Source: Anaerolineae bacterium | GTDB taxonomy: Bacteria > Chloroflexota > Anaerolineae > Aggregatilineales > Phototrophicaceae | Assembly (NCBI GenBank): GCA_022843745.1 | Contig: JALHNB010000007.1 | Location: 124,001 to 188,000, forward strand | DNA: 64,000 nt | Direction of reading: 5' to 3' | In this document: piece by piece, positions 3,957 through 50,460 of the stretch | Numbering within the stretch: the first letter of the stretch is position 1 | Layout: every line of letters begins with the position of its first letter | Made by a program: the position numbers and the translations under genes | Notes under the pieces: model-generated | Database searches by the model: none | What the model was told of the DNA's origin: nothing | The model's input: the letters and a program-made list of their open reading frames with translations, nothing else

Positions 3957-4006
3957 GATGTATCCACTGCTGCCATTGAACTAATGAAAAAATAAATGTA
4001 TCCACT
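3939..4006 (+). repeat. Short direct duplication joining the cysA end and the next gene's start
   Basis: The last 18 bases of cysA including its TAA (3939-3956) recur exactly at 3967-3984. The first 11 bases of the next gene (ATGTATCCACT, 3996-4006) also occur at 3958-3968. The second copy reads as a nine-codon frame, MYPLLPLN plus stop, whose head matches the next gene and whose tail matches CysA. It looks like a slipped or recombined 28-bp duplication and is unlikely to be a gene. Confidence 0.8.
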
Positions 4007-4919
4007 CTTATCGCTATCACAAATCACGCTCAACTCCCAACTGGCGCGCCGTCTACCGCGCCGTTTGGCTTATTATCATCTGGCGCTGCCCATCGCCTAT
4101 GACGAAGATTTTATTGCCGTCGCGATGGCACACCCGGATAACCAGGCCGTTGTTAAAGTGCTGGAAGCGGTACTCGGCGCAGCAGTCACGCCTGTTCGCA
4201 GCGATGCCGAAGAAATCAAGCATTCGCTGGATTATGTCTGGCAGGAAGACGGCGAGGCAGGCACTTCAACGCTTATGTTCTGGACGGATAAGCCAGAGTG
4301 TGAAGCCAATATACGCGCTTATGCCGCCGAAATCGCCGTCGCGCTCTCGTTAAATTGTGAAGAATCCCAACCCGAATCAATGGCCGCGCTGCTTCAGCGT
4401 TCCCAGGAAGTGCGCCCTTCGTTAATCGTCTGCTGTGTGGCTGATTCGCAGCTTCTAGCACAGCTTGTCAATCGCTCAACGGCTTCAATTTTGTTGGTGC
4501 GGGAAGGGCAGGCGCTGCCGCGAAATATTTTGCACGTTCTGCGCGGTCATACCCCGGATCGCCGCGTACTGGATTGGGTGATTCCGATTGCCCATCATGA
4601 CAACGTGCCTGTAACGCTTTTGGCGGCGGCGACTCCATCTTATGGGCAGGGCAGCCCACTCCTGAGCGATTTTGCGAATCTGCTTTCCCCAAATCATTCC
4701 GCGCATCTCACCGAATATGGGCAGGTGTTAGCCAGCGTAAACGTGACCGGAAGGGTCAAAATCCGCCAGGGGATGCTGGAAGATGTGATCGTTAGCGAGC
4801 TTTCTGAGCGCAGCTATGATATGGTCGCGATTGCGGCGGAAGCCTATGGCGATTTCGTTTACCGCGTTTTGCAGCGCTTGAATGGCAACTCCTGCGCGTT
4901 CCTCGTCATAAAACCCTAA
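3996..4919 (+). CDS. T2SSE_N-like domain fused to two universal-stress-like domains
   Basis: This is a 307-residue cytoplasmic protein without signal peptide. Residues about 15-82 match the N-terminal domain of GspE/PilB-type ATPases (RRLPRRLAYYHLALPI, then VAMAHPDNQAVVKVL and a terminal EEIKHSLDYVW). No ATPase domain follows. Residues about 85-165 look like one Usp-type alpha/beta unit ending VNRSTASILLVREG. Residues about 170-307 look like a second (NVPVTLLAAAT, SYDMVAIAAEAYGDFVYRVL, NSCAFLVIKP). Usp proteins sense nucleotides or stress; related N-terminal domains in MshE bind cyclic-di-GMP. The start is 39 bases after cysA, so it may be co-transcribed. No ATP-binding G-x2-G-x9-G signature is evident. 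Domain calls are by eye. Confidence 0.62.
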   Translation: MYPLLSLSQITLNSQLARRLPRRLAYYHLALPIAYDEDFIAVAMAHPDNQAVVKVLEAVLGAAVTPVRSDAEEIKHSLDYVWQEDGEAGTSTLMFWTDKPECEANIRAYAAEIAVALSLNCEESQPESMAALLQRSQEVRPSLIVCCVADSQLLAQLVNRSTASILLVREGQALPRNILHVLRGHTPDRRVLDWVIPIAHHDNVPVTLLAAATPSYGQGSPLLSDFANLLSPNHSAHLTEYGQVLASVNVTGRVKIRQGMLEDVIVSELSERSYDMVAIAAEAYGDFVYRVLQRLNGNSCAFLVIKP

Positions 4920-4988: not shown

Positions 4989-5086
4989 ATGACCTGATCG
5001 TTGATTTGGCGTACCCTATCCGTCAAGTTTCCTGCGCGGAAGGTCATTTATAATGATTTCAGCGATACGTCCCAGGGAGTTTGAAC

Positions 5087-5800
5087 ATGCTGAAACGAAT
5101 TCTTTTATGCAGCTTATTTTTGCTTTTGATTGCGTCTGGTGTTCACGCACAGGAACAAATCGACGAAATTTATGGGCTTGTAACGGTTGATCTGGCTGAA
5201 GTGCGTGTTGGGCCAGATTTCGCTTACGAGTCGATTGGGCAGTTACCGCGCGATGCGTCGGTTGTCGTCTTGGGGCGGGCGGGCGATTTTTTCGAGCGCT
5301 GGGATGGTCGCCAGTGGTTGCAGATTGATTTTGGTCAGTCACCGGCCTGGGTCTATGCGCGTTTGCTGCGCACCAGCGTCGCTTTTAACTCGATTTTCCC
5401 AACCGGACGACTGCTCCCGCGCGATGCCAATGGGCGTGTGCCGGATGTTTTTGATCTGTCGTCGTATGTCTGCTCACAGTGGAACGGCGACTATACGCGC
5501 TCCGGCGATTTTTTGGCAGGGGATACCCAGTTGGTCGTGACTTTTCCGACATTAACGGGGGCGAATGTTTACAGTGTGATCGTCATCTCGCCGACGGGTG
5601 TGCGCCGCGCTTTCGACAGCACTATTGGGACAGCCAATATTATCCTTGATGATTTGCCGTATGAGCCGGGGACATATACGTGGCGGGTCGCGCCGTATTG
5701 GACGAGTGCCGATAGCCGTTCAAATTGGCAGCAGGTGTGCTTGCTACAGACAGGTGGCACGTTTGAGAAGCCGGACACAAATCCGCGACATCGAAATTAG
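5087..5800 (+). CDS. Secreted protein with an N-terminal SH3b domain
   Basis: This is a 237-residue exported protein. A signal peptide spans about residues 1-22 (LLCSLFLLLIASGVHAQ). Residues about 30-95 form an SH3b-like domain (VDLAEVRVGPDFAYESIGQL, then a WLQIDFG strand and WVYARLL), the type that often binds cell-wall material or other envelope ligands. The rest (about 100-237) has beta-rich segments with WRVAPYW and two Cys (YVCSQWNG, QQVCLLQ) that could pair; I do not recognise it. The ATG at 5087 has AGGGAG 8 bases upstream. The gene stands alone between a TTAGC array and a large palindrome. Confidence 0.75.
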   Translation: MLKRILLCSLFLLLIASGVHAQEQIDEIYGLVTVDLAEVRVGPDFAYESIGQLPRDASVVVLGRAGDFFERWDGRQWLQIDFGQSPAWVYARLLRTSVAFNSIFPTGRLLPRDANGRVPDVFDLSSYVCSQWNGDYTRSGDFLAGDTQLVVTFPTLTGANVYSVIVISPTGVRRAFDSTIGTANIILDDLPYEPGTYTWRVAPYWTSADSRSNWQQVCLLQTGGTFEKPDTNPRHRN

Positions 5801-6062: not shown

Positions 6063-7073
6063 TTATCGACGTGCCTGGACGACATCTTCCTCTAAAAGAT
6101 CGACCAGATCGAGCGTGGCGTTGAAAATCACGCGGGCGTTGATCGCGCCGTCACGTGCTTCGATCACCATTTGAGGCGGAGTCACGCCGCAATTTTCAAA
6201 AGGAACGAGTGCATCGTTGAGATAGTCCACTGCTGTTCCCAAACGGGGCGCGTATCTCTGCAATTCTGGCAGTTCGCGCACATCCTGAGCTGTGTAGGGA
6301 TATTTTGCAACCGCTTCAGGCGCATCACAAGGCATGACTTCACCCCGGAAAACCGCCCACCAGAAAATCTCCAGATTATAAGCGAGTTCGCGACGCGCCA
6401 GGATAAATTCGCGCAGGCGGTCAATTTGCGCTTGCTGGATTTCGACGGGAATCACGACAACGCGAAGTGTTTCCAGCGGTGGCAAGCCTGCTGCTTCGGG
6501 AATTTCCAGCACATATGGAACACGGCGAACGGCGGCTCCAGATATCCAGCCGTCAAAGCCCAGATAATTGATGTGCAGCCATGTGCCATCCTGATTGCGT
6601 TCCAGCACCGGGATGGTGATAAGGGGCGGGATGTTGCGGATAAATGTGCCGCTACGCGAAGGGCGATCTCGCAGGGATGCGCCCTGGAGTGTGGTCACGC
6701 CGAACTCCGGCCTGTAGGTCAGCGGTGTTGGCCCGATCACGCCCGTGACGAAATCGCCCAATGGCAAATCCTCGACCTGAAAATCCCATTCGATGACCTT
6801 GCCGAAAATCCAGCCGAGATTCGTTAGTCGTCCCAGGCGGCGCACTTCGAACCACGAGCCGTCCAGATTGCGGCTGACGACCTGTAGGAGATCACCACGA
6901 AAGACTGACGCAACGGGCTGCGATTCTACCGACGGCGCACCACGCACATTCGCGCTTTCCGCCCGGACGCGCACATTGAAATCGCTGCTGTTTTCCTGCG
7001 CAAAAGCCACGCCAGAAAATACGAAAAGAATCAGAACATAGATTAATCCGAATCGACTTATGATTTTTCTCAT
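6063..7073 (-). CDS. Secreted protein with two SH3b-like domains (last gene of the secreted operon)
   Basis: This 336-residue exported protein has a signal peptide ending near FSGVAFAQ (about residue 26). SH3b-like domain 1 lies at about 32-95 (AESANVRGAPSVESQPVASV, WFEVRRLG, LGWIFGKVIEW). Domain 2 lies at about 115-185 (QGASLRDRPSRSGTFIRNIP, WLHINYLGFDGWISGAAV). A helical C-terminal part (about 200-336) contains MPCDAPEAVAKYP and a second Cys in FENCGVTPP, and is unrecognised. The ATG at 7073 overlaps the upstream stop as ATGA; a frame start 15 bases further out is less likely. The upstream gene encodes a solute-binding protein, suggesting co-translated, co-exported products. Confidence 0.75.
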   Translation of the reverse strand: MRKIISRFGLIYVLILFVFSGVAFAQENSSDFNVRVRAESANVRGAPSVESQPVASVFRGDLLQVVSRNLDGSWFEVRRLGRLTNLGWIFGKVIEWDFQVEDLPLGDFVTGVIGPTPLTYRPEFGVTTLQGASLRDRPSRSGTFIRNIPPLITIPVLERNQDGTWLHINYLGFDGWISGAAVRRVPYVLEIPEAAGLPPLETLRVVVIPVEIQQAQIDRLREFILARRELAYNLEIFWWAVFRGEVMPCDAPEAVAKYPYTAQDVRELPELQRYAPRLGTAVDYLNDALVPFENCGVTPPQMVIEARDGAINARVIFNATLDLVDLLEEDVVQARR

Positions 7074-8830
7074 TTGACCACAATCCAATCTCGGATATTC
7101 CAGAACGGCCTGCCGGGTCGCGGGTCGAAGCCGAGGACACCGCCATCGGCCACGAACATGTCATTAGCGCTGTAAAGCCAGATATAAGGCTGATCTTCCT
7201 GCAAAATCGTCTGAATTTCGTGGTAAATTTCCGCACGTGCGGCGGTATCGCAGCCCGGTAGAGTACGAGCCTGTTCCATCAATGTTTCGACGGTTTCATT
7301 AGTATACGAACCTGTATTATCGCTGAGGCCGATGATGTCGCCCGTGCGCGTAAAAATATTCGTTTGATCGGGATCATCTGTATAGGGCTGTGTCCAACCG
7401 CCGAGATAAGCGTCGTAGCGCTGTTGACGAGCCTCGCTGAGTACCGAATTATCATCCATCACGTTCAGATTGATATAGACCCCAAGTGGTCGAAGCTGGC
7501 GGGCAATAACATCGGCTGCCAGCACACGGCCTTGCCCATCCATAACCATCAGATTGATATAGAGTTGAGTATCCTGCTTCGCGTACAGGCAGCCCCGGCA
7601 CTCACGCACACCGTCGCGATTCACATCTTTCCAGCCGGATTCTTCGAGCAGTCGTTCCGCTGTACGTGGGTCATAGCCAACAGGTTGCAAATCGGGATTG
7701 AACGCCCAGCTTTGCGACGGTTGATTGGCTGCCAGCGGGGTGCCATATCCAAGCAATGCGACCTCGATGAGCTGATCGACATCAATCGCCATCTGAAGCG
7801 CTCGGCGCACACGCGGATCGCCAAAAAGGGGGTGATGGCCTTGATCGACCCATTCGCCATCTTCATCATAAGCGTTTTTCGGCTCAAGCGGGTCAGCCGT
7901 ATTGAATGCGATAAAATTCCAGACGGTGCCGGGATATTCAGCGATTTGCACATCCTCGGCATTTTTCAAATCATCGCGATTTTCATAAGGTGGGTTGATG
8001 AGGATATTGGTGCCGCTTGCCAGGAAATACTGCACCGCGCTCATGCCGGGGGGCAAATCCGTATAGATGAATGCTTGTGCGCCATCTTCCGCGATGAGGC
8101 GGATGTCCTGCATGGGGCGAACTTCATCAAAGTCGAATAATCCGGCGGTGGGGAAGGGTTCATTATTGAATGCGTGGCTGCTTATCACGCCAAATTTTTG
8201 CTGCGGATAGGCTTCCAGCCAGTCTACATAGGGGCGCGGCTCGTCGTCCTGTGCGCCAAAACTGTCTACGAAAGCGTCAAAATCGGGATCGAAAATGCGT
8301 GATGGCAAAATCGGGAAATTGGCGCGGTTTAATGTCTGGCAGCCGGGCATGTTAAAAGCAAAAGCAATCGTTGTGTCGTCAATAACCTGTGCGCCGGAAA
8401 TCCGGGAATTGATGTGGTTGTGAAACGATGAACTGACCCAATCGCTGGTGATCGCCAGATACGTGTAAAAAACATCATAGGCGGTGATCGGTACGCCATC
8501 GCTCCAGGTGAGATCATCGCGCAGTCGGAAAGTCTGAATCGTGCCTTGTGGCGATCCCGGCTCCAAGACCAGCCCATTATTTTCGGGTGCCGCACCTACG
8601 ATGACTCCATTGGCGGGGTCAACGGCGAAAAGCATCGGAAACAGCAAATCGACCAGGCGCTGGCAGTCGGGGTTATCGCACAGCAGGGGATTAAGCGCAC
8701 CGATTCCAGACGTGCCGCGCGGGTTGGCCTGGGTGATGACGCCGCTGCCATCCTGTGAGGCAGCCGGAACGACCAGCAATACCCCACAGGCCACGAGGAT
8801 CGTCATCACAGCCAAAATTTTTCGAAGCAT
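7070..8830 (-). CDS. Extracellular solute-binding protein, family 5 (peptide/nickel type), without transporter genes
   Basis: This 586-residue protein has a signal peptide (VACGVLLVVPAASQ, about 12-25). It carries SBP_bac_5 hallmarks: FRLRDDLTWSDGVPITAYDV, FGDPRVRRALQMAIDVDQLI, AERLLEESGWKDVNRDG and a terminal GFDPRPGRPFWNIRDW. Such proteins usually deliver oligopeptides to Dpp/Opp permeases, but no permease or ATPase is in this operon. Near the usual GDGxRE stretch it carries a C-x2-C (RECRGCLYA). A long central segment (about 190-290) separates the two lobes. It lies in the middle of an operon of secreted TPR and SH3b proteins and is coupled to the following gene by an ATGA overlap. Ligand unknown. 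Confidence 0.85.
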   Translation of the reverse strand: MLRKILAVMTILVACGVLLVVPAASQDGSGVITQANPRGTSGIGALNPLLCDNPDCQRLVDLLFPMLFAVDPANGVIVGAAPENNGLVLEPGSPQGTIQTFRLRDDLTWSDGVPITAYDVFYTYLAITSDWVSSSFHNHINSRISGAQVIDDTTIAFAFNMPGCQTLNRANFPILPSRIFDPDFDAFVDSFGAQDDEPRPYVDWLEAYPQQKFGVISSHAFNNEPFPTAGLFDFDEVRPMQDIRLIAEDGAQAFIYTDLPPGMSAVQYFLASGTNILINPPYENRDDLKNAEDVQIAEYPGTVWNFIAFNTADPLEPKNAYDEDGEWVDQGHHPLFGDPRVRRALQMAIDVDQLIEVALLGYGTPLAANQPSQSWAFNPDLQPVGYDPRTAERLLEESGWKDVNRDGVRECRGCLYAKQDTQLYINLMVMDGQGRVLAADVIARQLRPLGVYINLNVMDDNSVLSEARQQRYDAYLGGWTQPYTDDPDQTNIFTRTGDIIGLSDNTGSYTNETVETLMEQARTLPGCDTAARAEIYHEIQTILQEDQPYIWLYSANDMFVADGGVLGFDPRPGRPFWNIRDWIVVK

Positions 8831-8850
8831 CCGTCATTTGCCTTTCTGCT

Positions 8851-9567
8851 TCAGCGTGCCGGGGTCAGCAGCGGTAGCCACACGGAAAAGTCGCCATTGC
8901 GCAGGCTGTCGTCCACCGCTTGCAGCACTTCATTGGGTGTACCAGCAGGCAGGCGGGCATTGTGACCGTTAATGCCCATGAAATTTTGGTAGCTTTGGGC
9001 TGCCAATGCCGAATAGACTGCACCCAATGATGCGTGAGGCATGGCATAGATCGGGTCGAGCGTGATGGCCTGCTGGAAATCGGCAATTGCCAGATCGTAA
9101 TTTTGCTCGGCAGCATGGACGACACCACGATTGTTATAGGCGACGGCGTTATCCGGGTCGAGCGCGATCACAAGTTCGAAATCGCCAATCGCCAGGCCGA
9201 AATTGCCCAATCGCGTATAAAGTGTGCCACGATTGTTGTAGGCGGCGATCAGTGTTTCGTCCAGTTCCAGCGCACGATCATAATCTGCCAGCGCGTTTTC
9301 GCTGTCAGAGAGCGCGGCGTAGGCATAGCCCCGGCTGGCATAGACCGAGGCAAAATCTGGCTCGATTTCCAATGCGCAGCTATAGGCTCTCACCGCCTCG
9401 GCGTAATTGCCGCCTTCAAAATAAACATCGCCTTGCCCGATATAGTACGTCGGCGCGGCATTTTCGATCAGCGGGTCATCGCATTCCAGTTCAGTCTGCG
9501 CGGTCAGCCTACCAGAGAGCATCACGAGCAGACTAATCGCCAGAATTAGCCGATAAATCTTACTCAT
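8851..9567 (-). CDS. Secreted TPR-repeat protein
   Basis: This 238-residue exported protein has a signal peptide (LILAISLLVMLSGRLTAQ). About four to five tetratricopeptide units follow from residue 33: GQGDVYFEGGNYAEAVRAY, SRGYAYAALSDSENALADYD, NNRGTLYTRLGNFGLAIGDF, NNRGVVHAAEQNYDLAIADF, then ASLGAVYSALAAQSYQ. TPRs form protein-binding superhelices; here the array faces the outside of the cytoplasmic membrane. Cys28/Cys43-type residues near the start (LECDD, YSCALEIE) could form a disulfide. The ATG overlaps the stop of the upstream TPR gene as ATGA, and 20 bases separate it from the next gene. Partner unknown. Confidence 0.8.
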   Translation of the reverse strand: MSKIYRLILAISLLVMLSGRLTAQTELECDDPLIENAAPTYYIGQGDVYFEGGNYAEAVRAYSCALEIEPDFASVYASRGYAYAALSDSENALADYDRALELDETLIAAYNNRGTLYTRLGNFGLAIGDFELVIALDPDNAVAYNNRGVVHAAEQNYDLAIADFQQAITLDPIYAMPHASLGAVYSALAAQSYQNFMGINGHNARLPAGTPNEVLQAVDDSLRNGDFSVWLPLLTPAR

Positions 9568-10406
9568 GGTTGATCTTCTTGTTCACCAACGGGCGAGAAA
9601 TCGGCGGTCAGCAGCCACGTCCCATCGTCCAGCCGAGTCTCGAATGTGAAGCGCGATTCCAATGCACCCGCTGCACTCTGGATACGCTGGTCAGCCGAGC
9701 CACGTGCGAGGAACAGGTATTTTTGATAATTTTCCAGCGCCCGCGACGAATAGACGATGCCGATCAGCGCATAGGCACGTGCATCGATGCGATCATACTC
9801 AATTTCTTCTGCGTCGCTGGGGCGTTCGGGGTCGGTCAACTGTTCGTAAACGGTTTCGATGCCGGAACGCTCAATCGCATCTTGCAGCATCGTGAGGGCG
9901 TTGTCCCAATCGCCTTGTACCGCGTAGAGGATGCTGCGATTGTTGTATCCTGCCATGTAGTCAGGATCGAGTTCCAGCACCTTGTCGAAATCGGCAGCGG
10001 CTTCTTCGTATTCCTGAAGCGCGGTGTAGAGGATGCCGCGATTGTTGAAAGCAGGCAGCAGATCGGGCGAAAGTTCGATGGCGCTGGTGTAGTCCTCAAT
10101 CGCTTTTTCATAATCACGATAGCGCGTGTAGATAATGGCGCGTGACATATAAGCGGGCATATAGTCCGGCTGAATCACGCGGATAATGCAGGTAAAGCTG
10201 AATTCGGCGGCGGCAAGCTGCTCGGATGACATATAAGCCAACCCTTCGCCCATGTAATAGCTGGTGCGAATGTCGGTGGATTGATCTTCAAAAATCGGGC
10301 ATTCCGGCAGCGGTTCGGGTGTCTCGGTTTGCTCCTGCGCCAGCGCTGGGAACGCCGAAAACAAAAGTATCATGAGCATAAAAATAACCAGTAAGCGTTT
10401 TTTCAT
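9564..10406 (-). CDS. Secreted TPR-repeat protein (paralogue of the adjacent gene)
   Basis: This 280-residue protein has a signal peptide ending at FSAFPALAQ (about residue 23). TPR units appear at about 50-165: GEGLAYMSSEQLAAAEFSF, SRAIIYTRYRDYEKAIEDY, NNRGILYTALQEYEEAAADF, NNRSILYAVQGDWDNALTML. As in the neighbour, a Cys pair sits early (PECPIF and FTCIIRV), and there is a C-terminal extension ending SPVGEQEDQP with a beta-strand-like segment (FTFETRLDDGTWLLTADFSP). Order and length suggest a tandem duplication followed by divergence. A good GGAG site precedes the ATG, 12 bases after the previous stop. Confidence 0.8.
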   Translation of the reverse strand: MKKRLLVIFMLMILLFSAFPALAQEQTETPEPLPECPIFEDQSTDIRTSYYMGEGLAYMSSEQLAAAEFSFTCIIRVIQPDYMPAYMSRAIIYTRYRDYEKAIEDYTSAIELSPDLLPAFNNRGILYTALQEYEEAAADFDKVLELDPDYMAGYNNRSILYAVQGDWDNALTMLQDAIERSGIETVYEQLTDPERPSDAEEIEYDRIDARAYALIGIVYSSRALENYQKYLFLARGSADQRIQSAAGALESRFTFETRLDDGTWLLTADFSPVGEQEDQP

Positions 10407-10418
10407 GATGAATTCTCC

Positions 10419-11411
10419 TTATTGATCTTGGGTAGATGTATCCAGCAGCGGATTGCGCCGTCGAAGGGGTTCGATGAGCGATCCAGCCAGAATCAAATTT
10501 CGTTCAGCATTATCAATTTCAGCTAAAGCGGCATCTATTGTCCCTCTTGCGAGAATATCGTCGCTGCCGCAGGCATCTTCAAATGAGGAAATCGCGGTGT
10601 TGATGGACGTGATCGCGTTGTCTAGCGCCAGCACCGCCGGGACAAAGTTCGGCTCTTTTTGCGCGTCGGTATCGGTGATGATACGCCGAACGAACAGGGG
10701 GATCGGTGTGCAGCTTACGCGATCTCCCACGCTCAAACGCTGCCAGACGCTTGAAATTTGCGCAAAACTACCGATGCTCTGGGCGATATTACGCTCAAGC
10801 TGCGATACCAGCCGCCCATAGGGATAGAGATAGGCGATGTCCAAAAGGCGGCGGTACGTGCCGTCGATGACGCGGATATTCCACGAGCCGACCCAATATA
10901 GCTGACCCTGATAGACGATCTGAAAATCAAAGTAGCCTGTGCCGCCCAGCCGCCCCGTTAACTCGACTTCTGTTCCGGCGGGGAGTGTGCCGACCTGATC
11001 TTCCGGCGTGACCTGGGTGCGATAAATGGGCGTTTCGCGGGTTGTCCTGCCCAGTGCGCCTGCCCGCCTGATAAATGGAGTCGGGTTGATGCCGTCTACG
11101 GGCAGGGTAATCACGTCGCCACTCCATACCAGCAAAATCGCCGCGACCCAGCCATATTGCCCTTCGTGATAGACCTGTATCCATCGGGTATCGGATGTGC
11201 GACCAACCGCCGGAAGGGTGACGACAGGCGCGAGGACGGTCAGGCGGGGAAAGCCTGTCCCCGGCCCGGTGCGCAGAGAGCTAAAATCCTGGGTGGTGAC
11301 ATACACATCAGTGACTATGGCTGGCTCAGGGTCGTCAATTTCGGCCTCCTGCGCGGAAGCAGCGGAGAACGAGAGCAGCAGCGCTAAAATGAGGATGATT
11401 TTTTTCATCAT
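10419..11411 (-). CDS. Secreted protein with two SH3b-like domains
   Basis: This is a 330-residue exported protein (signal peptide LILALLLSFSAASAQ, about 5-20). SH3b-like domain 1 lies at about 33-95 (QDFSSLRTGPGTGFPRLTVL, WIQVYHEGQYGWVAAILLVW). Domain 2 lies at about 118-185 (TRETPIYRTQVTPEDQVGTL, YQGQLYWVGSWNIRVID). The C-terminal half (190-330) is predicted helical with two Cys (VSCTPIPLF, EDACGSDDI). Its layout matches the 336-residue protein at the other end of the operon (two SH3b-like domains, then a helical region with two Cys), so the two bracket the TPR and binding-protein genes. It starts with ATGATG, the first ATG overlapping the stop of the giant gene. Confidence 0.77.
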   Translation of the reverse strand: MMKKIILILALLLSFSAASAQEAEIDDPEPAIVTDVYVTTQDFSSLRTGPGTGFPRLTVLAPVVTLPAVGRTSDTRWIQVYHEGQYGWVAAILLVWSGDVITLPVDGINPTPFIRRAGALGRTTRETPIYRTQVTPEDQVGTLPAGTEVELTGRLGGTGYFDFQIVYQGQLYWVGSWNIRVIDGTYRRLLDIAYLYPYGRLVSQLERNIAQSIGSFAQISSVWQRLSVGDRVSCTPIPLFVRRIITDTDAQKEPNFVPAVLALDNAITSINTAISSFEDACGSDDILARGTIDAALAEIDNAERNLILAGSLIEPLRRRNPLLDTSTQDQ

Positions 11412-14400
11412 TCTGCGTCCTCCGTCCAGGCTGCGATGGTGCTGACTTCTGCGTTGAGAACCGTCACGCTGCCCGTTAAGGTGTCCAGGATGACGGTGCG
11501 TGGGTCGCGCAGTTGATATTGAGTTTCCAACGGTATCGGCGTTGGAACCACGGTGGGCGCGTTGGGCGTGACGGGTGTTGGGAAAACATCGCCTTCGAAT
11601 GGAAGCTGGATTCGGAAGGCCAGATAACGGCTGTCCGGCGACCAGGTTAGCGGTGTGCCAGAATAATCCGTCAGCCCGGTTTCAGGGATGCAGTAGCGGC
11701 GGGTCAGCCCAGTTTCGCGATCCCAAATGCTGATTTTCGGCACACGCTGGCGGGCTTCAAGCCGTTTCTGAACCTCTTCCTGATCGGGCAGTGTGTACCA
11801 ATCGACTCTATAGCGGAAGTCGCGCGACCAATATCCAGTGGGAAGTTCGCCGAGGATACGATGCTGGCGGGTGCTGGCATCGAAAATAAACCAATCCTGT
11901 TCGCCGGGTATGCGATAGTAGAGTGCGCGCCCCAGCGGATCCCACTGATAATTTTCGAGGCCGCCGTTATCCACGCGGGCGAAATAAGCCGCCTCGCCCG
12001 TTTCACGATCATAGATGTAATATTTTGAGCCGCTGCCACTGCCGCTGTTGTAGGGCGTACTGACTAACGCTAATGTCCCGACGGTGGGCTGCACAGCCAG
12101 CACGTTGGTTGATAGATCGTTGACAATAATCCCTTCCGGCTGTTCGAATGGATCGGTCAGGAAACCAGATGCCGGGTCAAAACGTCGTGTCAATGTAATC
12201 GCGCCGTTGTATTTTTCAGGAATATAGCCCTGATAGCGATATTCCAGGGTATGTGACCCGACCCACGAGATCGAACCCGGCCATTCGGAAGCTTCTGCCG
12301 CCCGGTAAAGAATGGTTGGATTCGTGCCGTCCGGGCGCAAAACGGTGAGATTGTCGTCCTGTTGGATCATCCAGTCGCGGTCTGGCGAGAATTCGCAGCC
12401 GCCCAGTACGCAAAGCGGGATAGATTCATCAGGATAGAGATGTCCGGTTTCAGGTTCGAGTACCCAGACATCATCGCTGCGACCCACAGGCGGGACAAAT
12501 AAGCGTCCTCGTGCGTCATAGTCTGGTGGTGGCGCGGAAATATCATAGAGTGTTTCGGCGGGACAAAATTCTTCGACTTCGCCATGATTTACCTGATCGA
12601 CTGTCGCTTCAGCGAGCGGCGGTGGCGTTGGGGTAATCGTGGGGGTCAGAGTGGGGCGGGGCTGACCGACATAGTCAAATGATTCCGTCGCGGTAGGCAG
12701 CAAGCCGATGCTGCGGGCTTCACTGGATTGACGGGTAACGACAGCCGCCACTTCGTCCGCGACCAGCGCATCGTAGGGTTTGGTCAGGCGGAAAATCCGA
12801 ATAAAGCCTGACGCGTCGTTGACTGCCAACCGCGTACCGTCGGGACTGAGCGCGGCATTATTTGGAAAATAACCTTCCTCATTACTAAATAAATTGATAA
12901 TCAATTGCGTATCGCGCCGGGTGTCAGGAATTGGCGGGATATAGCTGCCGACGAAGCGTTCGCTGGTCGCGATATTGATGGTCATGACCGAGAGGATAGG
13001 CTGTTGTCCGCGATCTGTCGTTTCCGGCCCGGCAGCGACAGGTGTCGAGGTCGGCGGCACAAGTTGGTTGATGTCCACTGTCGGCGTTGGTCGAATCTGC
13101 GACACGGAACTGATAAGTCCCTCGCAGAGCAGGTTGCCGAGTTCTTCGCGCTGCTCTTCAGTTAGATCAACGGTTATTTCGCGCCACAGGGCAGCATAAT
13201 CCAGCGATTCGCGTGAAAAAGTGGCGGTGAGGCAGGTCGGAATGCCAACAATCGCGATTGGAAGCGGCGTAGCGTTGGCCTGATAAAAGAAACGGGCTGT
13301 TGGGGTTAGCGCGGGAATGAGATCATCGGCATTGGATGGCAGCGATTCACACAGACGCTGCGTTAATCGTCCCAACTGGTCGGCACGCATCCGAAGATTA
13401 AACTGCTCCCACAGGCCAACCCACTGCCGCCAATTTTCAGGATAGGTGTTGACCAGACATGATGGCAAACCGGAAGGGGAATACTCAATTCCATAAATGC
13501 GTTCAGGCTGTGTTCCGACATTCAGATTGCTGGTGCTGACAAAAATCGTCTCACTATCCAGCCACCCATACTGGCGACCATCTGGCTGCGGCAGATCATC
13601 GCCGGCGATCAAAAACAGCTTGCCACGTTCGATGTTGTAGACGGCGATCTCGTTGCCGGGATAATGTTGGCTGAATGGGTCGGCGGAATAGATGACGAAG
13701 TAATTTTGCCAATCGTCGCTGGGGATAATCGACTCAATCGAACGCCCTGGCAAATAGGGAATCGTGATGCTCTGGCGCTCGTTCTGGCCGACCTTGACGA
13801 TCTCCATCACTTCGCCATCAATCGTACCGTAGCGGGTCAGATAGCGATCCGCGTCCGGCGACTGTTGGAGTACGTTGCCTTGCAGGATGACCCGTTCACG
13901 CTGGATGATCTCGCCTGTTTCTGTGTCCCAGACGCGCCAGTCATCGCCGTTGAGCGTCACGATCCGGCGGTTGTCCTGCGTGAAATAAAATTGCTGGAAG
14001 CCGGACGTGTAATTGATGTCTTCGAGAATCACCTCGCCCGTGTTCGCGTCAAAACGCTGAAAATCGGTGATGATTTCCGTGCCTGTCGCGTTATAAGCCA
14101 GAATATGACTGCCGCCGCTATCTGGTTCAGATGGAAAATAGGTCTGTTCCAGGCCGCCTGTCTCCAGATTGTAAACTTCAATCGGCTGCAAGCCAGAAGC
14201 GCGGCGTACCATCAAATGTTTGTTGTCGGGGTGCAGCACCATTTGCTGAACATCCTGCGGACGCACAAATTCGATCACGCCGGAGGCCGAGGATTCGTTA
14301 AAGGTGTAGACCAGCAAGCCCATCTGGTCGGGGGTGACGGTGAGTGGCTGAAGGATGTCGAGCAGAATCACGGTAAGTGGTTGGTAATTGTGCTGCGCGC

Positions 14401-15343
14401 GGTAATCCTCACCGAAAAGCAGCCGTAAAAATGAGTTTTCGTTCTGGCTGTTGGGTTCGCCGATGATACGTGCCAGCTTGCTGAATTGCAGGCCGTTCAT
14501 GTCGCGGATATTGCCATACGCAAGGCCGCTGCCAACCGGGATGCTAAATTGGCTGCCATTATCGGTATCAAGCTGTACCAGTCGCCCGCCCAATGACGGA
14601 TCGACGTACATAAAATCATCGCGCAGACTGTTCCACACGTAAATGGGATCGACTTCGATACGGGACGATTCGATTTCGGTGACGACAGGCAAATCCATAT
14701 TTCTGCCGTCGATGACTTGTAAACGCGCGGGGATTCCGGCGATGAAATTGCGGTTGGGGCCAAGTACGAGGCCGTTGCGGAAATTGAAGAAAGCGTAAGC
14801 GTTCGCCTGATTGGGCAGGGTGGTCGGCGCTTCTTCGCGCGTGGCGAGTAAATCCCATACCCAGGGGATGATGCTGGTGTCGTTTTCGCTGCGGCGCGTG
14901 GCAGCCGGGGCAGGCACTACGGTATCGAGCAGGAGCAAGCCATCGTCAGGCGAAAAATGCAGCGGGCCAGTGACGAGATTCGCACCATCCGGCGAAAAAT
15001 CGGCGCTGAGAGTACCTGTTTGTGTATCCCATAACTCTATCCGTTTATCAATTGCCAGCGCCAGATAGCGTCCATCGTGGCTGAATTTATAGGCGTTGTA
15101 CGCGCCACTTTCGTAGAGAATGTGCTGCGTTTCATAGGTCGCTGCGTCTACAAGCAGCAGCCGACCTGCCAAATCGACCTGCACGAAGCGGTCAAAATTG
15201 GGGTCATATTGAATGCCCTGCGGACGGAGTCGCCCGATCTGGCGAATTTCAGTAAATAATTCTTCGCTTGGCACATTTTGCGCCAAACCAATGCCGACGA
15301 GCGAAAAAATAAGCAGCGCCGCAAAAAAGGCTATTCGTCTCAT
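11408..15343 (-). CDS. Giant secreted beta-propeller protein, first gene of the secreted operon
   Basis: This is a 1,311-residue exported protein. The ATG at 15343 follows GGAG and gives a clear signal peptide (MRRIAFFAALLIFSLVGIGL, cut near AQ at 22); the 30 codons open upstream are not expected to be used. Residues about 30-620 are WD40/propeller-like blades (FSHDGRYLALAIDKRIELWD, WRVWDTETGEII). Residues 629-743 hold two copies of a 40-residue Cys-flanked helical module. Pro/Thr-rich linkers follow at 751-772 and 895-915 (TLTPTITPTPPPLAEAT). Between them is a short blade segment (LSPDGTRLAVNDASGFIRIF). A second propeller-like region (about 930-1300) includes EFSPDRDWMIQQDD and WSPDSRYLAFRI. 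No catalytic motif is evident. It may be a scaffold or sensor; no function is assigned. Confidence 0.75.
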   Translation of the reverse strand: MRRIAFFAALLIFSLVGIGLAQNVPSEELFTEIRQIGRLRPQGIQYDPNFDRFVQVDLAGRLLLVDAATYETQHILYESGAYNAYKFSHDGRYLALAIDKRIELWDTQTGTLSADFSPDGANLVTGPLHFSPDDGLLLLDTVVPAPAATRRSENDTSIIPWVWDLLATREEAPTTLPNQANAYAFFNFRNGLVLGPNRNFIAGIPARLQVIDGRNMDLPVVTEIESSRIEVDPIYVWNSLRDDFMYVDPSLGGRLVQLDTDNGSQFSIPVGSGLAYGNIRDMNGLQFSKLARIIGEPNSQNENSFLRLLFGEDYRAQHNYQPLTVILLDILQPLTVTPDQMGLLVYTFNESSASGVIEFVRPQDVQQMVLHPDNKHLMVRRASGLQPIEVYNLETGGLEQTYFPSEPDSGGSHILAYNATGTEIITDFQRFDANTGEVILEDINYTSGFQQFYFTQDNRRIVTLNGDDWRVWDTETGEIIQRERVILQGNVLQQSPDADRYLTRYGTIDGEVMEIVKVGQNERQSITIPYLPGRSIESIIPSDDWQNYFVIYSADPFSQHYPGNEIAVYNIERGKLFLIAGDDLPQPDGRQYGWLDSETIFVSTSNLNVGTQPERIYGIEYSPSGLPSCLVNTYPENWRQWVGLWEQFNLRMRADQLGRLTQRLCESLPSNADDLIPALTPTARFFYQANATPLPIAIVGIPTCLTATFSRESLDYAALWREITVDLTEEQREELGNLLCEGLISSVSQIRPTPTVDINQLVPPTSTPVAAGPETTDRGQQPILSVMTINIATSERFVGSYIPPIPDTRRDTQLIINLFSNEEGYFPNNAALSPDGTRLAVNDASGFIRIFRLTKPYDALVADEVAAVVTRQSSEARSIGLLPTATESFDYVGQPRPTLTPTITPTPPPLAEATVDQVNHGEVEEFCPAETLYDISAPPPDYDARGRLFVPPVGRSDDVWVLEPETGHLYPDESIPLCVLGGCEFSPDRDWMIQQDDNLTVLRPDGTNPTILYRAAEASEWPGSISWVGSHTLEYRYQGYIPEKYNGAITLTRRFDPASGFLTDPFEQPEGIIVNDLSTNVLAVQPTVGTLALVSTPYNSGSGSGSKYYIYDRETGEAAYFARVDNGGLENYQWDPLGRALYYRIPGEQDWFIFDASTRQHRILGELPTGYWSRDFRYRVDWYTLPDQEEVQKRLEARQRVPKISIWDRETGLTRRYCIPETGLTDYSGTPLTWSPDSRYLAFRIQLPFEGDVFPTPVTPNAPTVVPTPIPLETQYQLRDPRTVILDTLTGSVTVLNAEVSTIAAWTEDAE

Positions 15344-15504
15344 AAAATTGCTCCGCTTTTGACACGGGGTTCTTAATTGATTATAAGATGAAGATGAGAA
15401 TTTCATCTCATCGAACAAGACAACGATTTCCATACGCTCGCCATACGCTGGATGAAGGCCATGTTATATTTCTTACAGGCACATATAAATACCGGGGAAA
15501 CGCG
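15344..15504. promoter_or_regulatory. Divergent promoter region between the secreted operon and the next SH3b gene
   Basis: This 161-bp gap lies between two divergent start codons, so promoters for both must lie here or nearby. It holds the inverted repeat AGATGA (15392-15397) / TCATCT (15403-15408) with a 5-base spacer, plus a direct AGATGA copy just upstream. No convincing -35/-10 pair is visible. A shared operator is a possibility only. Confidence 0.35.
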
Positions 15505-17166
15505 ATGAACAAGCTATTTTTTGGGATGCTGTTATCTTTATTTTTTGTCTTTCCGGCGCAGGCTCAAGAACCGATTTGCCCCGCGAAAATTTTGCTTTCG
15601 TTATCGCGTTCCGGTTCAGCTTGCTTTGGCCTGGAACGTAACGAAGCCTGCTATGGCAACGGGGCGGTTGAAAGCGCGTTTCAGGGCGAATCAGACGCGG
15701 TATTTACCAAACCCGGTGATATTGTCGAGGCGGACACACTGCAATCCGTTCATGTTACGCCGCTGGAGAATGATATTTCGATTGCTTCCCTCTATATCCA
15801 GGCCAGCCTGACGGATAATGAAGAACGCAGTGTCACGCTGCTATTGTTAGGGGATACCGCAGTACAAAATAATGTGCCGCCGCTGCCGGAAATTGTCATT
15901 ACGGCTACCGGGGCGCTGAATATCCGCCACACGCCGGAAATTAACGGCGAAATTGTCGAACGACTGGCGATCAACAAAACCGTGATCGCCAATGGTCGCA
16001 CTGAGGAAGGTGACTGGCTGAGAGTCAAAATTCCGAATAGCAATAATCTCGGCTGGATTGGTGCGGATGTTGGTCGCGCGGATGGTGATTTGCGGACTCT
16101 GAGTGTCGTCGGCATTGATACGCCTGTGTATCGAGCATTTCAGGTTTTTACACTGAAAACGGTTGAAAATCTGCTGTGTGATGGTGCGCTCAACAGCGGC
16201 CTGCTGCTGCAAACGCCGAATACCTTCACCTATGTCGATTTGATCGTGAATGGCATCCAGATGCGACTGGCAGCAACAGCTTTTTTGCAAGCGCAGCCTG
16301 GGGAGAATTTGACCATTCATGTGCTGCAAGGGCAAGCAGAGTTGACTGTAAACGGCGAAACGCAGATGATTCCAGCGGGTGCGCAAGCTTCAGTTTCTAT
16401 TAATGAAGATGGCATGGCGACAGATGCGCCTTCACCCGCCGAACCCTATGATCTGGTTGCTTTGCGCGGCCTGCCACTCAACAGCCTGCCGACTCGCCTC
16501 ACGCTGATTGACCCGCTGACACCGGAGGGGATTGAGGCCGCAATTGCGCAACTGGCAGTCGTTGAAGTCACCGAAACACCGGAAGTGATACCTGTTGTCG
16601 ATACCAGTTGCAGGCGGAGGACGATTCGCTCGACGACGTTATGGGCAGGGCCGGGTTTATTTTATGATGCCGTCAACAATATCCCCGCCGAGACATCCGT
16701 CCGGCCTGTTTTTCAAACGACTGACGCTGATCAGGATGTCTGGTGGCAGTTGACCAATAGCAATTGGATTCAGTCCAGTGACGTGGCGCAAACGGGTGAA
16801 TGTGACCCGATTCCTGTCACAAACGCGATCCCCGCGCCCCCTAACAATATACTTTCGCTGGAAACCTGTGCGAGTCGTAACGGGCCGCTTCGTGCCGGAC
16901 AGCAAGTGAGCATCGAATTTATCCCGCCGCCCTGGAACAGTGAAGGTGAAGCCTATCAAGCCACAAGAACCGATCCGGGCAGCATCACCGTAGGGCAGGA
17001 GCGTTTGTACGTTTATGTGGATGACCCTGTTCGCTTAGGCATGGTTGATGACCGCTATTTACGCAGATTTTCGGCGCATTGGGTGGCGGTAGCAGGCAGC
17101 TATCGGATCGAAGGGAAGTGGTTATCCTATCTCCCGACGTGTACGATTACCGTTCCGGTGGGATGA
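15505..17166 (+). CDS. Secreted protein with FecR-like and two SH3b-like domains
   Basis: This 553-residue protein starts at the ATG at 15505, which has GGGGAAA upstream and a proper signal peptide (FFGMLLSLFFVFPAQAQ); the upstream-extended frame lacks these. Residues about 25-120 carry four Cys and are unrecognised. An SH3b-like domain lies at about 135-195 (ATGALNIRHTPEINGEIVER, WLRVKIPNSNNLGWIGADVG). A FecR-like stretch lies at about 265-300 (LTIHVLQGQAELTVNGETQM, then IPAGAQASVSI). A second SH3b-like domain lies at about 370-430 (TLWAGPGLFYDAVNNIPAET, WWQLTNSNWIQSSDV). The C-terminal beta-rich part (about 455-553) ends in YLPTCTITVPVG. It is divergent from the all-secreted operon and similar in style. 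Confidence 0.72.
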   Translation: MNKLFFGMLLSLFFVFPAQAQEPICPAKILLSLSRSGSACFGLERNEACYGNGAVESAFQGESDAVFTKPGDIVEADTLQSVHVTPLENDISIASLYIQASLTDNEERSVTLLLLGDTAVQNNVPPLPEIVITATGALNIRHTPEINGEIVERLAINKTVIANGRTEEGDWLRVKIPNSNNLGWIGADVGRADGDLRTLSVVGIDTPVYRAFQVFTLKTVENLLCDGALNSGLLLQTPNTFTYVDLIVNGIQMRLAATAFLQAQPGENLTIHVLQGQAELTVNGETQMIPAGAQASVSINEDGMATDAPSPAEPYDLVALRGLPLNSLPTRLTLIDPLTPEGIEAAIAQLAVVEVTETPEVIPVVDTSCRRRTIRSTTLWAGPGLFYDAVNNIPAETSVRPVFQTTDADQDVWWQLTNSNWIQSSDVAQTGECDPIPVTNAIPAPPNNILSLETCASRNGPLRAGQQVSIEFIPPPWNSEGEAYQATRTDPGSITVGQERLYVYVDDPVRLGMVDDRYLRRFSAHWVAVAGSYRIEGKWLSYLPTCTITVPVG

Positions 17167-17339: not shown

Positions 17340-18905
17340 ATGAGGCGAGTCCGAGTTTTATTTTTAATCGCGTTAATGCTTGCTGCTGTCTTATCAATGA
17401 TGCCTGTCCAAGCACAGGACGACAATATTCTGCGTATTGTCACCAACAGTGAAGTTCGCACCCTTGACCCGCATATTGCCTACGAATTTGATACATGGCC
17501 TGCGGTGTCCCTGTTTTATCGCGGCCTGATTACGCTGGACGATAACAGTGCGCCACAGCCTGCATTGGCCGAGTCGTGGGTCGTGAGCGAGGATGGCTTG
17601 ACCTACACCTTCACGCTGCGCGAGGGTATTAAGTTCTCGAATGGTCGTGACATCACCGCCGATGACGTGAAATACAGTTTTGAACGTCTGCTGAACCCGG
17701 AAACGGCTTCTCCTACCGCTTATATGTTCGCTGCGGTGACAGGCGCAGAAGCTCGTCAGAACGGCGAAGCGGATTCGGTGAGTGGTATTACCGTTATTGA
17801 TCCAAAAACGGTTGAATTTAAACTCGACTACCCAGTGTCGTCCTTGATGCTGCGTTTTGCGTTAGCGCCGGGGATGATTATCGCGAGTGAAGGTGTGGAA
17901 GCAGCGGAAAATTTTGGTCGCCAGCCGTTGGGCGCGGGGCCATTCATTTTTGAGTCGTGGGAAAGCGGTATCCGCATGACGGGAACGCGCAACCCGTATT
18001 ATTTCAAAGAAGGTCTGCCGAATTTCGACGGTTTTGAACTATCTATCGGGGTTGAGCCGTCAATCGGCATCCTGCGTATCCAAAGCGGCGAGGCCGATGT
18101 TTCGCTGGATTTCGTGCCGAATTCCGATTTCGCGCTTATCAATGTTGACCCGGTGTTGTCCGAACGCTTACTGCCACTGGCGGCCTTCCCGAATATCGAC
18201 TACATCATTTTCAACACGAATATTGAGCCGTTCAGTGACCTGCGTGTGCGTCAGGCCATGAACATGGCAATTGACCGCAGTTTTCTGGTGCAGTTGATGA
18301 ATAATCGTTCCGTCCAAGCGGCTGGCCCGATCCCACCGAGCGTTCTGGGCGATAACAAAGATTTGGTGCCGCAGGCTTATGACCCCGAAGGCGCAAAAGC
18401 ACTTCTGGCTGAAGCAGGCTATCCAGATGGATTCACAACAGAAATGCTCGTCACAACCGATCCGACGCAGCTTTCACTAGCGCAGGCTGCCGTCGCAGAT
18501 TTGGCCGCAATCGGGATACAGGTGACGTTGACATCGTTGGAGAGCGCACAATTTGTCGATTTGCTCGTCAACCAACCGGATGTTGTGCAGTTGGTGATGA
18601 CCGAATGGTATCTGGATTATGCTGACCCTTCGAATATGTACGAACCTTTGCTGCAATGCGGTGGCTCGTATAACTGGGGAAGCTATTGCAACGAAGAACT
18701 CGATGCGTATTTTGAGGAAATCAATCTGCTGCCGCCAGGAGATGAGCGCTGGGCTGCTTTCGGGGAACTCGAAAAGAGGTTGAGCGAACTGCTGCCCAAC
18801 ATCTTCCTGGAACACCGCGTCAATTATTATTTCGTCAGTGAGCGACTGTCGATCGAATCCGATCCCGCGCTGCTGTTGAGATTTGACACGGCCAGCCTGA
18901 AATAG
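17340..18905 (+). CDS. ABC transporter substrate-binding protein, family 5 (peptide type)
   Basis: This 521-residue exported binding protein has a signal peptide (LIALMLAAVLSMMPVQAQ). Family-5 signatures are RTLDPHIAYEFDTWPAVSLF, FTLREGIKFSNGRDITADDV, DLRVRQAMNMAIDRSFLVQL, and DPEGAKALLAEAGYPDGFTT. AAGGAG at 17328-17333 is a strong ribosome site. It is the first gene of a run with two permeases and a proline iminopeptidase, so it probably binds short peptides that the peptidase later cleaves. No dipeptide-ATPase genes follow; those must be supplied from elsewhere. Exact ligand unknown. Confidence 0.9.
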   Translation: MRRVRVLFLIALMLAAVLSMMPVQAQDDNILRIVTNSEVRTLDPHIAYEFDTWPAVSLFYRGLITLDDNSAPQPALAESWVVSEDGLTYTFTLREGIKFSNGRDITADDVKYSFERLLNPETASPTAYMFAAVTGAEARQNGEADSVSGITVIDPKTVEFKLDYPVSSLMLRFALAPGMIIASEGVEAAENFGRQPLGAGPFIFESWESGIRMTGTRNPYYFKEGLPNFDGFELSIGVEPSIGILRIQSGEADVSLDFVPNSDFALINVDPVLSERLLPLAAFPNIDYIIFNTNIEPFSDLRVRQAMNMAIDRSFLVQLMNNRSVQAAGPIPPSVLGDNKDLVPQAYDPEGAKALLAEAGYPDGFTTEMLVTTDPTQLSLAQAAVADLAAIGIQVTLTSLESAQFVDLLVNQPDVVQLVMTEWYLDYADPSNMYEPLLQCGGSYNWGSYCNEELDAYFEEINLLPPGDERWAAFGELEKRLSELLPNIFLEHRVNYYFVSERLSIESDPALLLRFDTASLK

Positions 18906-18915
18906 AGTCACACTT

Positions 18916-19842
18916 ATGATCGGCTATCTGATCCGGCGGTTGGTCGGAGCAGCAGGCGTGATTTTTGGCGTTGCCACGATCACGTTTATCATGGTTTTTC
19001 TGATGCCAGGGGACGCGGCTCGAATGTATGCCGGGCCGCGCGCTCCTGAAGAAACGGTTGAACGCATCCGGGAGCTTTGGGGTCTCAATGACCCTCTCCC
19101 GGTGCAGTATGTTCGTTACCTGGGGCGTGCTGTGCAGGGTGATCTGGGCAACTCGACACGCGACAGTCGCCCAGTGCTGCAAGCGATTTTCGAGCGCTTG
19201 CCCGCGACTCTGCAATTAGCGTTTTCGGGACTGCTGGTTGAGTTGTTGATTGGCGTTCCGCTGGGCATTCTCGCAGCACTTCGTCCTGGCTCATGGGCAG
19301 ATGGATTGACGACATTTTTGTCGCTGATCGGGATTTCGATTCCGCCGTTCGCATTGGGTTTGGTCGCGCTGTATCTTTTTGGCTTTCTCATCCCGATATT
19401 TCCACTGGGTGGTTATGGAACGGTACTGCACCTGATACTCCCTGCGCTGGTACTCGGCTTCGGCGGGTCAGCATTTTATTCGCGCGTCCTGCGCAACAGC
19501 ATCCTGGACGTAATGGGCGACGATTATATCCGCACGGCGAAGGCCAAAGGGGTATCGCCGCGCTGGGTGCTGCTTCGACACATCTTGCGTAACGCGCTTC
19601 TCCCTGTGGTAACACTGGCTGGGCTTGATCTGGCGCTGCTTCTGGGTGGCGTTGTGGTTATCGAAGCGGTATTTGGCTGGCCGGGGATCGGCTTGCAGGC
19701 GTGGACGGCGATCCGTAACCAGGATACGCCGATTATCATGGGAACGGTACTTTTTGCCTCGATTGCTGTGGTCTTTATGAATATGCTGGTTGATCTGCTG
19801 TACATCACGCTGGATCCGCGCGTCCGGCTCACGAAGGGGTAA
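18916..19842 (+). CDS. Peptide ABC transporter permease, DppB type
   Basis: This is a 308-residue inner-membrane subunit with the typical DppB start MIGYLIRRLVGAAGVIFGVA. A periplasmic loop with LNDPLPVQYVRYLGRAVQGD follows, then five further spans. The EAA-type loop is DDYIRTAKAKGVSPRWVLLR followed by HILRNALLPV. The ending DLLYITLDPRVRL is family-typical. It sits 10 bases after the binding-protein gene and 7 bases before the next permease, so it is in one operon. Unlike the second DppB in this window, its first periplasmic loop has no insertion. Confidence 0.92.
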   Translation: MIGYLIRRLVGAAGVIFGVATITFIMVFLMPGDAARMYAGPRAPEETVERIRELWGLNDPLPVQYVRYLGRAVQGDLGNSTRDSRPVLQAIFERLPATLQLAFSGLLVELLIGVPLGILAALRPGSWADGLTTFLSLIGISIPPFALGLVALYLFGFLIPIFPLGGYGTVLHLILPALVLGFGGSAFYSRVLRNSILDVMGDDYIRTAKAKGVSPRWVLLRHILRNALLPVVTLAGLDLALLLGGVVVIEAVFGWPGIGLQAWTAIRNQDTPIIMGTVLFASIAVVFMNMLVDLLYITLDPRVRLTKG

Positions 19843-19849
19843 TTTCAGC

Positions 19850-20725
19850 TTGGTTGAACTGCAAAAGAAGCAAAATCGCGGCTTCTGGACACGGCTGTGG
19901 CGGCTGCCACGTGCATGGGTCGGCGGTGCGTTGATTCTGCTGGTCGGGATTGGCGCATTATTGGCACCTGTTCTCGCGCCCGATGATCCGCTGCAACAAT
20001 TTCGTGATGGTTTATCCGATGTCGGCACACCGCTGCCGCCGAATGGTCGATTCTTGCTTGGCACGGATCACTTAGGCCGTGACATCTGGAGTCGGACGCT
20101 GTATGGTGCGCAAATTTCGTTGTTTGTGAGCCTCGTCGCCAACATCACGGCATCCGTTTTCGGGACGCTGGTTGGGATGCTGGCAGGGTATTATTCCGGT
20201 ATTATTGATACGATCCTGATGCGAGTCACCGATGTGCTGCTGGCGTTCCCGGCGATTTTATTGGCGCTTGGTTTAGCCGCAGTGCTGCGACCCAGTGTGT
20301 CAGTAGTCGTCGTGATTTTGACGGTGATTACATGGCCTGCATTAGCACGTCTGGTACGCAGTCAGGTTTTGATTGTGCGCGAAAGGGCATTTATCGAAAG
20401 TGCCCGCGCATCTGGTGCACAAGACGGCTATATTATGTTCTGGCACATCCTGCCGCATACGATCACCGTGACGATTGTCTGGGTGACCCTGAGTTTTGCC
20501 AGTACCGTGCTGGTCGAGTCGTCGCTGAGTTTTCTGGGCGTGGGCGTACCGCTGCCGACATCGACCTGGGGTAATATGATCGCCGAGGGGCAGAGTCGCT
20601 ATCGAATCGCGCCCTGGATGATTTTCGTGCCGACTGTCGCCATCATTATTACAACGCTGGGTTTCAATCTGCTGGGGGATGCGGTACGTGATGCGATTGA
20701 CCCGCGCACATCGCTGCAAAAATAG
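19850..20725 (+). CDS. Peptide ABC transporter permease, DppC type
   Basis: This 291-residue membrane partner of the DppB-type subunit has a soluble N-terminus, then WVGGALILLVGIGALLAPVL, the marker FLLGTDHLGRDIWSRTLYGA, and the EAA loop ERAFIESARASGAQDGYIMF. The ending LGDAVRDAIDPRT is diagnostic. I chose the TTG at 19850 (LVELQKKQ) because AAGGGG lies about 11 bases upstream and the start falls just after the DppB stop. The next in-frame ATG upstream, at 19790, would overlap DppB by 53 bases. The start is therefore moderately certain, the function highly so. Confidence 0.9.
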   Translation: MVELQKKQNRGFWTRLWRLPRAWVGGALILLVGIGALLAPVLAPDDPLQQFRDGLSDVGTPLPPNGRFLLGTDHLGRDIWSRTLYGAQISLFVSLVANITASVFGTLVGMLAGYYSGIIDTILMRVTDVLLAFPAILLALGLAAVLRPSVSVVVVILTVITWPALARLVRSQVLIVRERAFIESARASGAQDGYIMFWHILPHTITVTIVWVTLSFASTVLVESSLSFLGVGVPLPTSTWGNMIAEGQSRYRIAPWMIFVPTVAIIITTLGFNLLGDAVRDAIDPRTSLQK

Positions 20726-20737
20726 GAGAGACAATTC

Positions 20738-21640: not shown

Positions 21641-21653
21641 TTCTGTCGCGCTA

Positions 21654-21704
21654 CGCCCCTACAGTACAACTTTTAATCTCGTAGGGGCGCAAGGCCTTGC
21701 GCCC
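21654..21704. repeat. CCCCTAC-edged palindromic element
   Basis: CGCCCCTAC (21654-21662) is inverted as GTAGGGGCG (21681-21689). The latter merges into a perfect 20-bp palindrome, GGGCGCAAGGCCTTGCGCCC (21685-21704). It lies in the 98-bp gap between the peptidase and amidase genes. Confidence 0.75.
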
Positions 21705-21738
21705 TTATTGACACGTTATTTTTATGGAGAATTGAAAA

Positions 21739-22614: not shown

Positions 22615-22623
22615 AGGTTAATT

Positions 22624-46563: not shown

Positions 46564-46582
46564 TCAAATATTCCTTTATAGG

Positions 46583-47503: not shown

Positions 47504-47512
47504 GTTTGACCT

Positions 47513-48541: not shown

Positions 48542-48578
48542 AATGTTCCTCTATGAAAACCATAACGATAAATCAGAA

Positions 48579-48603
48579 AGGGGCAGATCATAGACCCGCC
48601 CCT
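48579..48603. repeat. CCCCTA-edged inverted repeat inside a transporter operon
   Basis: AGGGGC (48579-48584) and GCCCCT (48598-48603) are inverted around 13 bases. It sits in the 83-bp gap between binding-protein and permease genes, where it could make a transcript-processing or attenuation hairpin. It is a weaker member of the palindrome family. Confidence 0.5.
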
Positions 48604-48624
48604 ATCAATCAGATCAGGTACGAA

Positions 48625-50280: not shown

Positions 50281-50460
50281 GTCTCTTCCTTTTGCAAAAA
50301 CCATTTCGATACACTGGTGTATTTTGATGCCTGTGAATATAACAAGCATTACTAGATATTTACAACAAACTGGCTGAAAAGGTTGACATTTTCACCAATT
50401 CAAAGCGTTATCGAACCCATGCGAATTGCGATTAACCTCGTTATAATCGTCACAAAACGA

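Follow-up and report, generated by a model that had tools for sequence, protein, structure and literature searches.

A conserved cluster of exported propeller, TPR and SH3b proteins with solute-binding proteins of two unrelated folds in Anaerolineae

Solute-binding proteins are normally taken as parts of importers. The locus described here raises the question of what such a protein does when it is encoded among propeller, TPR and SH3b proteins with no permease in the cluster. It lies in a stretch of 64,000 nucleotides (hereafter the window) from the genome of an Anaerolineae bacterium (7.96 Mb, 117 contigs). Taken singly, the domains encoded are ordinary; their being conserved together, and the swap of one binding-protein fold for another among them, are not. 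A description of the cluster was not found in the open literature by a search that misses most subscription journals.

An operon of exported products and its flanking genes

The original prediction described six linked minus-strand genes running from 15343 to 6063, each with a signal peptide, encoding binding-type domains and no permease, ATPase or catalytic domain. The genes, overlaps and gaps all lie where it placed them. Its borders are too narrow, since a gene on either side also belongs. By gene conservation, the unit comprises eight genes; the two flanking ones run on the strand opposite to the operon:

5081 to 5800, plus strand: SH3F, convergent to the operon; predicted exported SH3b domain with a conserved Cys-containing beta-like domain (start codon, TTG at 5081, uncertain)
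6063 to 7073, minus strand: SH3B (SH3b-B), two SH3b domains and a helical C-terminal part
7070 to 8830, minus strand: SBP5, family-5 solute-binding protein without a permease, in its own clade relative to permease-linked relatives
8851 to 9567, minus strand: TPRB (TPR-B), TPR protein with an export leader, a TPRA paralogue at about 30% identity
9564 to 10406, minus strand: TPRA (TPR-A), TPR protein with an export leader
10419 to 11411, minus strand: SH3A (SH3b-A), a pair of SH3b domains behind a signal peptide, then a helical bundle at the C-terminus
11408 to 15343, minus strand: PROP, 1311-aa multi-propeller protein, predicted from its leader to be exported
15344 to 15504: intergenic region between the divergent genes PROP and 15505-17166, presumed promoter region
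15505 to 17166, plus strand: divergent SH3b protein, 553 aa, predicted exported; found only in clusters of the window's kind (type I)

Four-base ATGA overlaps join PROP to SH3A (11408/11411), TPRA to TPRB (9564/9567) and SBP5 to SH3B (7070/7073), and the remaining operon gaps measure 12 and 20 bases. PROP has an upstream in-frame ATG at 15433, yet its signal peptide begins at 15343. The N-terminus of every operon product is a hydrophobic leader, which in most cases has A-x-A or A directly before Q at its end, in agreement with the putative signal peptides. A lipobox was not found in most members of the cluster protein families and no membrane segment is consistent among them. Promoter and terminator scans gave nothing above shuffled background.

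Pfam bears out the absence of catalytic, permease and ATPase domains from the six operon products. It assigns SBP5 to SBP_bac_5 (E 6.5e-52), SH3A and SH3B to SH3_3 (2.2e-12 and 1.2e-12) and TPRA and TPRB to TPR_1 (1.1e-23 and 6.5e-35); WD40 matches of PROP are weak, under the curated cut-offs. NCBIfam gave no family for PROP, SH3F or the divergent protein. A FecR domain suspected by eye in the latter was found in none of ten members, and SH3F compared with PDB sequences gave only weak SH3 and designed-protein matches.

PROP has two all-beta parts (about 30-605 and about 785-1311), joined by a helical linker (about 628-742) in which Cys is conserved, and contains Pro/Thr-rich linkers. An AlphaFold model of residues 22-1221 (pLDDT 78, pTM 0.49) matches propellers (Z 16.3, 293 residues, 4.4 A); Foldseek also pairs it with double propellers, with E 1e-17 and low TM. 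The modelling supports a propeller fold: the N-terminal all-beta part is probably made of tandem WD40-type propellers, and the C-terminal part, which the matches barely cover, may be a further one. In the SH3A model (pLDDT 83), the two SH3b domains match SH3 domains with which muramidases, LytB and an endolysin bind the cell wall; the C-terminal part is a helical bundle in which two Cys (C234, C281) are conserved. This bundle resembles chemoreceptor sensor domains and LytSN, but we claim no homology, as Z scores of 8.5-9.6 are below the meaningful level for helical bundles. Profile comparison identifies SH3B as a remote SH3A paralogue (hhalign 99.4%).

Among other genes of the window, 3996-4919 (plus strand) encodes a protein with an MshEN domain (E 1.4e-9; members of this family are known to bind c-di-GMP) at its N-terminus and a weak C-terminal match to Usp (universal stress protein). 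Consecutive plus-strand genes at 17340-24009 encode an SBP5, two Opp-type permeases, an alpha/beta hydrolase, an acetamidase/formamidase-like and a glutamine-synthetase-like protein, which looks like a cassette that takes up an amide compound and breaks it down. One minus-strand run at 44596-50349 combines an SBP5 and two permeases with an S9 prolyl-oligopeptidase-type peptidase carrying a PD40 propeller, a likely cassette for peptide uptake and cleavage.

Conservation and distribution of the unit

Syntenic regions were fetched from relatives and then searched with profiles of the cluster proteins. The order PROP-SH3A-TPRA-TPRB-SBP5-SH3B, on one strand, recurs in 16 genomes including the window's own (PROP is cut by a contig end in some). 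This contradicts the possibility, raised in the original prediction as an argument against an assembly, that relatives keep the genes apart. Order, strand and four-base overlaps are retained while protein identity drops to 35-60%; the PROP-SH3A and SBP5-SH3B overlaps are the most widely kept, in most relatives. Such overlaps agree with coupled translation, and they do not prove that the products are made in equal amounts.

The flanking genes behave as parts of the same unit, being present beside nearly all copies of the six-gene order within contig reach. SH3F, the most conserved cluster gene (46-74% identity among relatives), is usually convergent and on the operon side opposite PROP, and the divergent SH3b gene is found in all type I clusters whose contig extends that far. 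Beyond these two no neighbour is kept among the syntenic regions, and the cluster flanks, as far as annotated, share neither a membrane protein nor a signalling partner.

SH3F was found in 33 of 154 genomes of one Anaerolineae order, in two families. Wider samples of 396 genomes of the class and 400 of the phylum gave it in its own family only, and PROP likewise; these searches scored two to six candidates per genome outside the order, from which rare distant members could escape. A contig scan with the SH3F alignment returned 37 loci, and one with the window SBP alone returned no relative. Named relatives are all metagenome-assembled Anaerolineae, including UBA6055 and an Aggregatilineales bacterium, and one contig set is labelled Bacteroidetes. 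The latter (JAPUDW010000248.1 and JAPUDW010000128.1; loci L100 and L109, genome G381) belongs to a cluster-bearing MAG titled 'Bacteroidetes bacterium', which the genome set places in the same family; the title is probably a mislabel.

The unit is patchy even inside genera. Among 61 family genomes, PROP and SH3F occur together in 18 of the 20 that have either, with one genome each having one alone (Fisher 3e-13, a value overstated by genome kinship). Likewise, SH3B has a strong match in 19 of 19 PROP genomes and occurs alone in one more (7e-15, again overstated by kinship). Within genera g13 and g17 the genes are lost together as a unit, the PROP, SH3A and SH3B trees broadly agree, and the genomes with two clusters (G000, which is the window's, G002, G030 and G047) carry two SH3F genes each. 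Gain and loss of the cluster as one unit would be the simplest reading of these patterns.

Binding proteins of two folds

The original prediction missed a paralogous cluster with a different binding protein. Twelve such clusters (type II) keep PROP, SH3A, SH3B and SH3F and are without SBP5, TPRA with TPRB, and the SH3b gene that is divergent in type I. They have instead a gene for a Peripla_BP_6 protein (BP6), divergent from PROP. Among binding proteins, SBP_bac_5 and Peripla_BP_6 belong to separate structural classes. One type II cluster lies in the window's own genome (G000:C55, L087), with a single longer TPR gene after SH3A. BP6 and PROP matches on one contig of G021 suggest a thirteenth. 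Nine of 61 genomes, all of them with PROP, have the cluster BP6 subfamily (E <= 1e-100), and the next best match is at 2e-13. Between SH3B and SH3F of the L087 cluster, 6924-7794 encodes a PIN-domain protein preceded by a small ORF, possibly a toxin-antitoxin pair.

Type II PROP (support 1.0) and type II SH3A (0.998) fall in clades from which type I is absent; these clades also contain sequences of a few clusters that have no binding protein close by. Two clusters without a nearby binding protein are L174 and L175 (G381b and G376a), which have PROP, SH3A, SH3F and SH3B and whose PROP sequences group together inside type II. Type I SH3B forms one clade (0.957); SH3F separates less cleanly. Given this separation of the two types, the exchange of binding-protein folds was probably an old event rather than a repeated one.

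No permease is present inside any cluster of either version, and neither is an ATPase-like ORF, those in the flanks not being conserved. Related family-5 loci outside the clusters have a permease adjacent in 27 of 28 cases, and a tree splits the cluster SBPs from these other SBPs with support 1.000. The cluster proteins are also more diverse and faster-diverging (mean identity 0.37 versus 0.44). They keep SDGxxxTAxDV, a Cys pair (C164, C527) and a C-terminal WN...W, whereas TNxGN (429-433) and Trp479, both Opp-type motifs of the permease-linked relatives, are eroded. The cluster binding protein appears to have left transport. The motif erosion may reflect a changed ligand, lost docking to a permease or lost ligand binding, and together with the faster divergence it means that ligand binding by SBP5 may be changed or lost. 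The nearest solved relatives in the PDB are AppA and other peptide or nickel SBPs; a non-peptide ligand or a structural role may be possible for SBP5.

The kept fold signature SDGxxxTAxDV and Cys pair would also suit an auxiliary importer receptor that feeds an Opp-type permease encoded elsewhere, the other genes of the cluster being wall accessories. Several SBP-permease cassettes of the genome could serve it, and binding proteins that share a permease are known, such as pneumococcal AmiA, AliA and AliB with one permease (PMC6290326, PMC5736914). We nevertheless consider this unlikely: a shared permease gives no reason why the SBP gene should be so strictly linked to those for the propeller, TPR and SH3b proteins, the Peripla_BP_6 substitute would require another, Liv-type permease, and the cluster SBPs form a separate, faster-evolving clade.

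A proposed wall-held assembly and its relation to known systems

We propose, with a probability of about 0.55, that the eight genes encode a wall-held extracytoplasmic assembly in which an exchangeable solute-binding protein is the ligand receptor. SH3A, SH3B, SH3F and the divergent SH3b protein would hold the assembly at the peptidoglycan, and PROP and the TPR proteins would form its scaffold. At the cell surface, the binding protein, having no permease, would take hold of a small ligand, to be sensed there or concentrated for a transporter or enzyme encoded elsewhere. The gene set, its export signals, order and co-occurrence, the absence of a permease and the replacement of the binding-protein fold are observed; the physical complex, the wall binding, the ligand capture and the downstream output we infer. 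Against the proposal stand the eroded motifs of the cluster SBPs, the clusters with no binding protein nearby (G376a, G381b) and flanks that share no membrane or signalling partner. SH3b proteins are very common across these genomes, so that having the domain says little by itself about function. The substitution of an unrelated fold in the sister cluster strengthens the idea of a permease-less receptor. The sensing or capture assembly of the original prediction thereby gains on its receptor side, while the SH3b fold is the one argument for the envelope anchoring that it also proposed.

A structural or wall-remodelling assembly would use the same parts differently, the SBP being a scaffold without ligand binding in a filament, sheath or aggregate architecture. 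SH3b domains, TPRs and propellers are scaffold folds, the pocket-region motifs of the cluster SBPs are eroded and variable, and the wider group includes filamentous floc and granule formers (PMC10746286). For a pure scaffold, however, recruiting a second, unrelated family that shares ligand binding would be an odd coincidence, and no hydrolase or other enzyme was found among the cluster genes; we regard this reading as rather improbable. That independent exported proteins are neighbours by chance or history with no joint function is very improbable, as the conserved order in two families largely refutes it: exported domains of all these kinds are common in the genomes, but their order is kept at 35-60% identity, and joint loss in g13 and g17, matching copy numbers and agreeing trees also stand against it.

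The cluster could be, as a more tentative claim that we think somewhat more likely wrong than right, an undescribed type of cell-surface receptor machine of Aggregatilineales-like Chloroflexi, with a propeller/TPR/SH3b scaffold held at the wall into which two unrelated SBP folds have been plugged for capture or sensing without a transporter of their own. This would mean that abundant Chloroflexota, most of them uncultured, have a surface-receptor scaffold of general use, and that some SBPs in these genomes should for this reason not carry a transporter annotation. Type I and type II would then be a natural experiment, with a defined protein set, for locating the docking surface.

The cluster resembles several known systems in part. 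SBP5 clearly belongs to SBP_bac_5, as in Opp/Dpp-type ABC importers, which combine such a protein with OppB/OppC permeases and ATPases. The cluster differs in having no linked permease pair or ATPases in any genome, and its SBP forms a clade apart and is encoded next to propeller, TPR and SH3b proteins. In three-component sensing (XylFII-LytS, CuaD-CuaSR) an SBP likewise encoded outside an import operon docks on a sensor kinase. There the kinase adjoins the SBP, whereas the eight genes here include no kinase, chemoreceptor or regulator and all their products are predicted to be exported; the match of the SH3A bundle to LytSN (5xsd_L, Z 8.5) may be meaningless for a helical bundle. The SH3b fold seen in the models is shared with wall-binding muramidases, endolysins and LytB, but the cluster proteins are without a hydrolase or peptidase domain and join SH3b to helical bundles or a beta domain. 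Finally, AliA/AliB of pneumococcus and OppA1-5 of Borrelia are also SBP5 proteins encoded apart from a permease. Those are free-standing genes, whereas the cluster SBP is one of eight genes conserved as a unit, and a non-homologous protein takes its place in the sister version.
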